DNA of 64,000 bases, taken from positions 186,001-250,000 of the forward strand of contig JAJEIE010000018.1 in assembly GCA_022827625.1 (NCBI GenBank), in the 5' to 3' direction. Below are positions 5,955 to 7,861 of the stretch, one piece after another; position 1 is the first letter of the stretch; the number at the start of each line of letters is the position of its first letter. Below the pieces are notes generated by a model. It did no database searches and was not told where the DNA came from. It worked only from the letters and a program-made list of their open reading frames with translations. The stretch comes from Candidatus Poribacteria bacterium (GTDB lineage Bacteria; Poribacteria; WGA-4E; WGA-3G). A program made the translations under genes and the position numbers.

Positions 5955-6319
5955 TAACCGGAAAAATTACAAGCAATCTGGACGCTGTCATTGAAGTGGA
6001 AGTTGTCGGGTCAGACCAGAAAGAGAAAATTGCGGCTATCATTGATACCGGTTTCTATGGCTTCTTGATACTACCCAGTGATTTAATAAACCGTCTCACA
6101 CTCCAACGCATTGGCAACCAACCTGCTTTCCTGGGTGATGGGAATGAGGTAGACTTTAATGTTTATCTTGCGAAAGTATTATGGGATGGCGAAGAACGCG
6201 AGGTGACAGCATTAGAGTCAGACGCTGGACCGTTAATAGGAATGTCTCTACTTTATGGAAGTTGCGTGATATTGAACGTTATAAACGGCGGTGACGTAAG
6301 CATTAATGCCCTGCACTAA
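5951..6319 (+). CDS. Retropepsin-like (clan AA) aspartic protease homologue
   Basis: The 122-residue protein carries the catalytic triplet in 'AAIIDTGFYGFLILP' (DTG near residue 32) and the companion motif 'GPLIGMSLLYG' near the C-terminus, the pattern of single-domain retropepsin-like proteins that act as homodimers. The GTG start overlaps the stop of the 89-residue partner. No signal peptide is present, so it is probably cytosolic. Substrate is unknown. The overlap suggests that the partner protein is a substrate, an inhibitor or a toxin-antitoxin mate; none of these is shown by sequence. Confidence 0.75.
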   Translation: MITGKITSNLDAVIEVEVVGSDQKEKIAAIIDTGFYGFLILPSDLINRLTLQRIGNQPAFLGDGNEVDFNVYLAKVLWDGEEREVTALESDAGPLIGMSLLYGSCVILNVINGGDVSINALH

Positions 6320-6356
6320 CGCAGGCGATGTTTCGGGAGATAAGATTCACTCACAG

Positions 6357-6725
6357 ATGCAAAACACAATTGTCTGGCTTGTTGTTTTAGGGGTTATTCT
6401 TCTTGTAGGTGTTGGGATGATTTATGCATTACGCGTGCCGCGCGGCGCACCGAAAACCTATCCAGCGGATCAGGGACCTAACTTTATTGATGTGAGTGCC
6501 TATTCACCTGAAATGCAGGAGGCTTACGAACTTTTTACCCGTAAATGTAGTCGATGCCATACCGTTGCGCGTCCGATTAATTCTACCTTCACACCCGAAG
6601 AATGGCGAGCGTATGTCTATAAAATGATGAAAAAACCGGGGTCGGGTCTTACACCGAAAACCGTTGACCAGATCATTGAATTCCTCGTTTACGATTCACA
6701 GCATAGAGAGAAACAGACACAATGA
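6357..6725 (+). CDS. Membrane-anchored monoheme cytochrome c
   Basis: The 122-residue protein has one N-terminal membrane helix (residues 4-24) and a periplasmic domain with the heme-binding motif CSRCH (residues 64-68). The segment 'EMQEAYELFTRKCSRCHTVA' resembles other small c-type cytochromes. It likely carries electrons in the periplasm. An in-frame upstream ATG at 6306 would overlap the previous gene; the ATG at 6357 puts the membrane helix at the N-terminus, so I prefer it, although the Shine-Dalgarno match is poor for both. Its TGA overlaps the ATG of the next gene, a thioredoxin-fold protein, which suggests that the pair acts together. Confidence 0.8.
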   Translation: MQNTIVWLVVLGVILLVGVGMIYALRVPRGAPKTYPADQGPNFIDVSAYSPEMQEAYELFTRKCSRCHTVARPINSTFTPEEWRAYVYKMMKKPGSGLTPKTVDQIIEFLVYDSQHREKQTQ

Positions 6726-7861
6726 CCATTGCAATGTCGGATTGCAGAATGCACTATACACTGAAGTTTTTCATCTTTACAGTCCTGTTCTGTGTAATGG
6801 GGATACAGATGGGAAATACCCAAGAGGGTGACATGAAGAGTACCGATTTTCAGATTTCAATAGATACCCGCCGTATCGTATTTACCGTACCACCTATCTT
6901 AAAAGATGGGGTCTGGTTGGTGCCTTTGGAGGATTTCGCGAAACGACTCGGATTAAAAGTGGAATACCCAGAAGGCGAAGAAATGGCGGTTCTCTGCGGA
7001 GAAACGGAAGCGGAGCTCTGTGTACCCCTCCGATTTCAAGATGGCAAAAACGGGGTTGTGGAGGTGAAGGGTGTGACCTATGCACAACCTGCAAGCGTCA
7101 CAGCACCTTTTGGGTTTGAAATTTATAGCATATCATCAAACAAATTGGAGGTTATTCAACCGATGCATCTTGCTCCCGAATTCACGCTTCCCGATCTGCA
7201 GGGTACGCAAAGACATTTACGAGATTTTCGAGGCAAAAAGACGCTCCTCTACGTTTGGGGGTCTTGGTGAGGGTGTCGAGAACAACTGCCGGGCTGGCAG
7301 CAATTTTACAGCGAATACCGTGAGAAGTTAAACCTTATCTCTATTGCCCTCGACGCACAAGGTGTCTCTGTCGTCCGTCCTTGGCATGATGCCGCGAACG
7401 CCGATTTCTTCACACTCGTTGATACACAGAATATCTTTGGCACCCGTTACAACCTTAAAGCTATTCCTTATGGCGTCATGATTGATGAAGTGGGTCGTAT
7501 GGTGAAAGCACCTTTTAGCATCAATGTCGCTGATAAAAAGACCCTGATGATGCTGGAAAAATGGATCTCCGATCCTGACTATAACGCAGTGCTGCTTCGT
7601 GATATGCAACGATCAGATGAATCGGTTACCCAAACGCTTACTGAAGCGACTGCCCGTTTTCAACTCGGTCTCATCTTGCTGGAAGGCGGTAAAAAACAGG
7701 AAGCGATGGCTGAATGGCGAAAGGCACTCGCATTGGATCCGCGAAACTGGATTATTCATAAGCAAATTTGGGCAGTGGAGCATCCAGATAAATTTTATGA
7801 CGGGGGCGTTGATTACGGATGGCAGAAAACACAGTTGGAAGCAGAAAAAAGTGAACAGTAG
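6722..7861 (+). CDS. Probable selenocysteine-containing TlpA-like redoxin with TPR-like tail (UGA at 7268-7270 read through)
   Basis: The frame from ATG 6722 reaches a TGA at codon 183 and then continues open for 197 more codons. Read through, it gives a 379-residue protein: signal anchor (residues 10-32), a copper-amine-oxidase-N-like segment ('VWLVPLEDFAKRLGL'), a redoxin domain starting at 'HLAPEFTLPDLQGTQRHL' and a C-terminal TPR-like unit ('KKQEAMAEWRKALALDP'). The TGA lies exactly at the thioredoxin-fold active site, 'LYVWGSW-U-GCREQLPGWQ', where TlpA-like proteins have a redox cysteine, so the motif becomes U-x-C. A hairpin with a GGG-starting loop follows 20 bases later. The gene overlaps the cytochrome c gene (ATGA). 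Known: UGA plus a nearby downstream hairpin specifies Sec in bacteria. Inferred: a periplasmic thiol oxidoreductase. The alternative is a nonsense mutation or sequencing error. Confidence 0.75.
7268..7300 (+). promoter_or_regulatory. Candidate Sec codon and bacterial SECIS hairpin
   Basis: UGA is at 7268-7270. The perfect 5-bp stem CTGCC (7286-7290) / GGCAG (7296-7300) encloses the loop GGGCT. The loop begins 20 bases after the UGA, within the spacing accepted for bacterial SECIS elements, and it starts with guanines as SelB-recognised loops do. The stem is short. Confidence 0.6.

Follow-up and report, generated by a model that had tools for sequence, protein, structure and literature searches.

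The gene at positions 6722-7861 of the window, the 64-kb stretch of poribacterial DNA that we analysed, very probably encodes a genuine selenoprotein, whose U-x-C motif is unusual. Judging from the sequence, we put the probability of this reading at about 0.95. The translation of 379 residues has a sole interruption, a TGA at codon 183 (7268-7270), which we read as selenocysteine (Sec). The earlier note had proposed a U-x-C selenoprotein at this place, and the proposal is now supported by the invariance of the TGA among homologues, by the Sec machinery of the genome, and by compensatory change in a hairpin downstream of the TGA. If the TGA were annotated as a stop codon, the gene would come out split or truncated.

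Gene and domain layout

The gene and the features described within it are on the plus strand. The TGA is preceded by 182 codons and followed by 196 sense codons and a TAG stop (7859-7861). This agrees with the single frame described in the earlier note, whose count of 197 codons after the TGA includes the stop. The TGA lies in the context WGSW-U-GCREQLP, the active site of a ResA/TlpA-type thioredoxin domain, and inside the AhpC-TSA/Redoxin domain found by Pfam at residues 150-259. Its assignment to the redox position of a TlpA-like redoxin was therefore correct. Cys185 (7274-7276), the presumed resolving partner of Sec183, is invariant. The thioredoxin domain is preceded by an N-terminal signal or anchor helix and a Cu-amine-oxidase-N-like domain (residues 47-97), and followed by a C-terminal TPR (residues 310-342) and a conserved tail; the Cu-amine-oxidase-N-like and TPR matches are just under the Pfam cut-offs. 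Cys92 and Cys100 in the N-terminal domain (window 6995-7021) form a nearly invariant pair, possibly a second redox or metal site.

Structure model and predicted function

The AlphaFold2 model, made with 16 sequences, has a mean pLDDT of 79.6, and its first 40 residues are poorly defined. A helix at residues 10-27 was taken as a signal or anchor, and the selenoprotein is predicted from the model to be exported. The thioredoxin domain resembles Bacillus ResA in fold (Z 18.5, rmsd 1.9 over 133 residues) and in extracytoplasmic location, which for the selenoprotein is a prediction. ResA acts in cytochrome c maturation. The fold of the TlpA/ResA class is present in the selenoprotein, whereas the CxxC active site of the class is absent and all orthologues have U-x-C instead. 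In the sequence alignment, Sec is aligned with the first Cys of the solved ResA-type proteins, and the motif lacks one residue relative to CxxC. The two proteins also differ in that ResA has no Sec and the selenoprotein has the extra N-terminal and TPR-like domains.

A disulfide-reductase role is the function we favour, with modest confidence. A Prx-like peroxidase function is possible but clearly less probable. AhpC-TSA and Redoxin rank first among the Pfam families, the model is also similar to peroxiredoxin Q structures (Z about 15), and the 2008 GOS survey filed 46 sequences as 'Prx-like (UGC-containing)' (PMC2398784). However, the best sequence and fold matches are ResA/TlpA proteins, and a second redox residue follows closely after Sec, as in disulfide oxidoreductases. 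For a disulfide reductase, the product would be exported and anchored by the N-terminal helix, carrying a ResA/TlpA-type domain in which U-x-C replaces the usual motif. The most likely chemistry would be an attack of Sec183 on a disulfide substrate and resolution by Cys185 via a selenenylsulfide, and the electrons would come from some extracytoplasmic donor.

The hairpin downstream of the TGA

A bacterial SECIS hairpin is located at 7286-7300, with a 5-bp stem (CUGCC/GGCAG) and the loop GGGCU. The limits for bSECIS elements are a loop of 3-9 nt with G in the first two loop positions, a stem of 4-16 bp, a distance of 16-37 nt from the UGA, and an MFE of -7.5 kcal/mol or lower (PMC13188914). The 5-nt loop, the stem, and the loop start 20 nt after the UGA are within these limits, and the energy is within them only with flanking bases (-7.8 kcal/mol with the neighbouring bases, -6.7 kcal/mol for the 15-nt stem-loop alone). 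The folding energy was not above that of shuffles (z = -0.23 for 64 nt), and an Rfam scan of the window gave nothing at gathering thresholds. Since the folding energy is unremarkable, the structural evidence for the hairpin is carried by codon use and covariation.

Codon choice is a fair test of the hairpin because the protein is conserved there. For the hairpin Leu codon, 62 of the 65 distinct homologous sequences have CTG and the other 3 have TTG, compared with a background of 246 CTG among 1772 Leu codons (~14%). The paired Gln codon is CAG in 62 of the 62 CTG cases and CAA in 3 of the 3 TTG cases, on a background where Gln is mostly CAA. The outer stem pair has changed from C-G to U-A in three lineages through these two synonymous changes, and the TTG/CAA sequences are spread over three families of the phylum (L060 and L068 in f8, L064 in f7, and L071 in f3). 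Because the outer pair switches by synonymous compensatory changes, the RNA itself must be constrained. In a covariation count with 25 sequences, 100% of the cells were paired and the score exceeded that of every one of 500 shuffles; only one of the five pairs showed double-sided change. In the distant relative L067, the residue encoded by the loop is changed from Gly to Val, yet GG is kept at the loop start. The hairpin with a GGG-starting loop 20 bases past the TGA, as the earlier note had described it, is thus confirmed: it fits the bSECIS model and shows synonymous compensatory change. It would recruit the Sec system to the UGA.

Selenocysteine machinery in the genomes

We located the sel genes by family searches. 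The genome of the window, which is 95% complete, has matches to selA (595 bits), selB (348 bits), and selD (362 bits), and a tRNA-Sec with a UCA anticodon (78 bits) that sits 160 bases from selB. All four genes suggested for checking in the earlier note (selA, selB, selC, and selD) are therefore present in the same genome. With this machinery, the ribosome would read the UGA at 7268-7270 as selenocysteine via the genome's own SelA, SelB, SelC, and SelD. The selD gene (L093, G000:C40:54720-55643, minus strand) has one in-frame TGA, which by eye is in the context C-A-G-U-A-S-K; the sequence about 17 nt further on could fold into a hairpin with a GGGG loop.

Readthrough of the UGA with an ordinary amino acid, through a reassigned code or programmed readthrough with the hairpin as its signal, is very improbable. 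The inserted residue is not nameable from sequence alone, which leaves room for such readthrough, but TGA is the stop codon of 6 among the window's 34 long ORFs, which shows that the code is not reassigned. The complete Sec system with its tRNA-Sec(UCA) also argues against ordinary readthrough, and selD likewise has a TGA within its frame and, beyond it, a sequence that could form a hairpin.

Among the Armatimonadota, in which selA occurs patchily, it was found in 9 of the 10 genomes bearing the selenoprotein gene and in 15 of the 40 without it (Fisher P = 0.0035, uncorrected for the relatedness of the genomes). Since selA is close to universal in the Poribacteria, the same comparison showed no association there and is uninformative (selA in 51 of the 59 genomes with the gene and in 21 of the 26 lacking it; P = 0.36). 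The eight gene-bearing assemblies without a selA match (G062, G015, G030, G033, G035, G049, G061, and G077) are mostly incomplete or fragmented; G062, however, is listed as 96% complete.

Selection after the TGA

Comparing the window gene with 14 relatives, we obtained dN/dS values of 0.05-0.14 after the TGA versus 0.12-0.45 before it. This strong purifying selection indicates that the part after the TGA is translated in the same frame as the part before it. Another explanation would be two products, in which the UGA terminates translation and the downstream half is made by reinitiation. An ATG at 7478 does open a 127-aa ORF. However, a break at the UGA would cut the thioredoxin domain at its active site, and the 69 codons from the TGA to this next in-frame ATG are constrained like a coding sequence (dN/dS 0.01-0.17 in nine comparisons, with dS saturated in two). 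We regard separate products as highly unlikely.

Conservation of the TGA among homologues

Scanning GTDB genome contigs for homologues, we obtained 43 loci. One is from an Armatimonadia MAG, and the other 42, which include a terminal fragment, have Poribacteria in their titles. The TGA was present in every homologue whose site was readable. Among all homologue loci fetched for comparison, the pattern W-x-S-W-x-[GA]-C-R had 114 matches, which reduce to 65 distinct sequences from Poribacteria and Armatimonadota. All 65 have TGA at the site; a sense codon was never found there. The gene occurs in 59 of the 85 genomes of the window's phylum (E <= 1e-30), with one TGA in every match spanning the site. 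The phylum to which the Armatimonadia locus belongs is represented by 291 genomes; ten of them have a match with a TGA, and an eleventh match covers the C-terminal part only. The motif is usually WGSWU[GA]C, and WASWUGC in relatives such as L063, L071, and L129-L136. The same TGA is seen in tens of independent assemblies. A sequencing or assembly error, of which the earlier note had warned, or a nonsense mutation that arose recently in a gene undergoing decay could be suspected from the draft assembly of the window and from ordinary TlpA relatives without a stop here, but this reading is already refuted by the conservation of the TGA, which includes several single-contig chromosomes (e.g. OX638316.1 and OY282374.1), and by the purifying selection after it.

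No Cys version of the selenoprotein was found among the 65 distinct homologues. No such version appeared even though one scan pattern, YVWGSWCG, had Cys in place of Sec and so was biased towards it. The Cys-containing relatives that we inspected are ordinary CxxC TlpA/ResA proteins with no stop at the site. The earlier note had suggested checking whether homologues have Cys at this position; every orthologue found has TGA instead. Matches in a plasmid search were all below 60% identity, and those listed are annotated as ordinary ResA, TlpA, or redoxin proteins. The absence of a Cys form among the sequences found makes the subfamily a test case for Sec sites that are never replaced.

Eight loci (L138-L145) were considered as possible Cys orthologues and rejected. 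Among them are six ordinary CxxC proteins, a different gene with a U-x-x-C motif (L141), and a copy of the TGA gene whose frame is broken (L144). L141 (G015:C19:8100-10200, position 861, plus strand) is a second TlpA-like gene; its frame of 492 codons contains a TGA in the context WASWUAGCRKHVP. In L144 (G035:C1) and L057, the selenoprotein gene is broken by a frame change after the TGA, possibly due to an indel error or a decaying copy.

Known relatives

The earlier note had called the gene a probable new selenoprotein. The selenoprotein part holds, whereas 'new' is too strong, since UGC-containing Prx/TlpA-like selenoproteins have been published since 2008 and the NCBIfam family NF041054 (ResA-like WAxxUGC) exists. 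NF041054 describes a ResA-like thioredoxin domain with U-G-C, and residues 95-273 of the selenoprotein match it (whole-protein E 1.3e-44). However, the score is 153 bits against a cut-off of 300, which none of the 85 genomes of the poribacterial phylum reached, and the usual motif here, WGSWU[GA]C, departs from that in the family name. The poribacterial proteins are therefore a related but unmodelled subfamily, below the NCBIfam cut-off, of a kind that is already known (ResA/TlpA-like with U-G-C). The published UGC-containing TlpA/Prx-like selenoproteins (PMC2398784; PMC9312934; PMC13188914) share the pfam00578/cd02966 domain and the UGC Sec motif; these examples, such as MDE0950781.1 and MBL6689828.1, were likened to the poribacterial protein by motif and domain description only. 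An entry 'UGC-containing TlpA disulfide reductase family protein' appears in a 2026 review (PMC13188914). Neither this review nor PMC9312934 mentions Poribacteria by name. Our literature search did not find 'Poribacteria' or 'Poribacteriota' together with 'selenoprotein', nor the term 'WAxxUGC'; 'Poribacteria' does occur with 'selenocysteine' in two papers.

Cytochrome neighbour

The ORF directly upstream (6306-6725, plus strand) encodes a c-type cytochrome with the haem motif CSRCH, and its end overlaps the selenoprotein start in an ATGA. Apart from the window, 39 of 42 loci examined have the overlap, with the haem motif CSRCH, once CSKCH. In the remaining three, the distant loci L055, L058, and L060, no cytochrome was found immediately upstream. 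Of the coupling to a cytochrome c claimed in the earlier note, the overlap is real and conserved, and translational coupling is suggested by it. The cytochrome and the selenoprotein may be made together and belong to the same respiratory or cytochrome-maturation context; this is the weakest step of the proposed mechanism. We tentatively consider, as a less probable reading, that the proteins form a distinct extracytoplasmic subfamily with obligatory Sec (no Cys form) and a ResA-type U-x-C, paired in Poribacteria with a dedicated c-type cytochrome for electron exchange or cytochrome maturation. The shortened U-x-C motif and the conserved cytochrome c overlap would connect selenium with respiration in sponge-associated bacteria in a concrete, testable way. 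The 3' neighbours of the selenoprotein gene encode a DUF4175 protein and PPK2.
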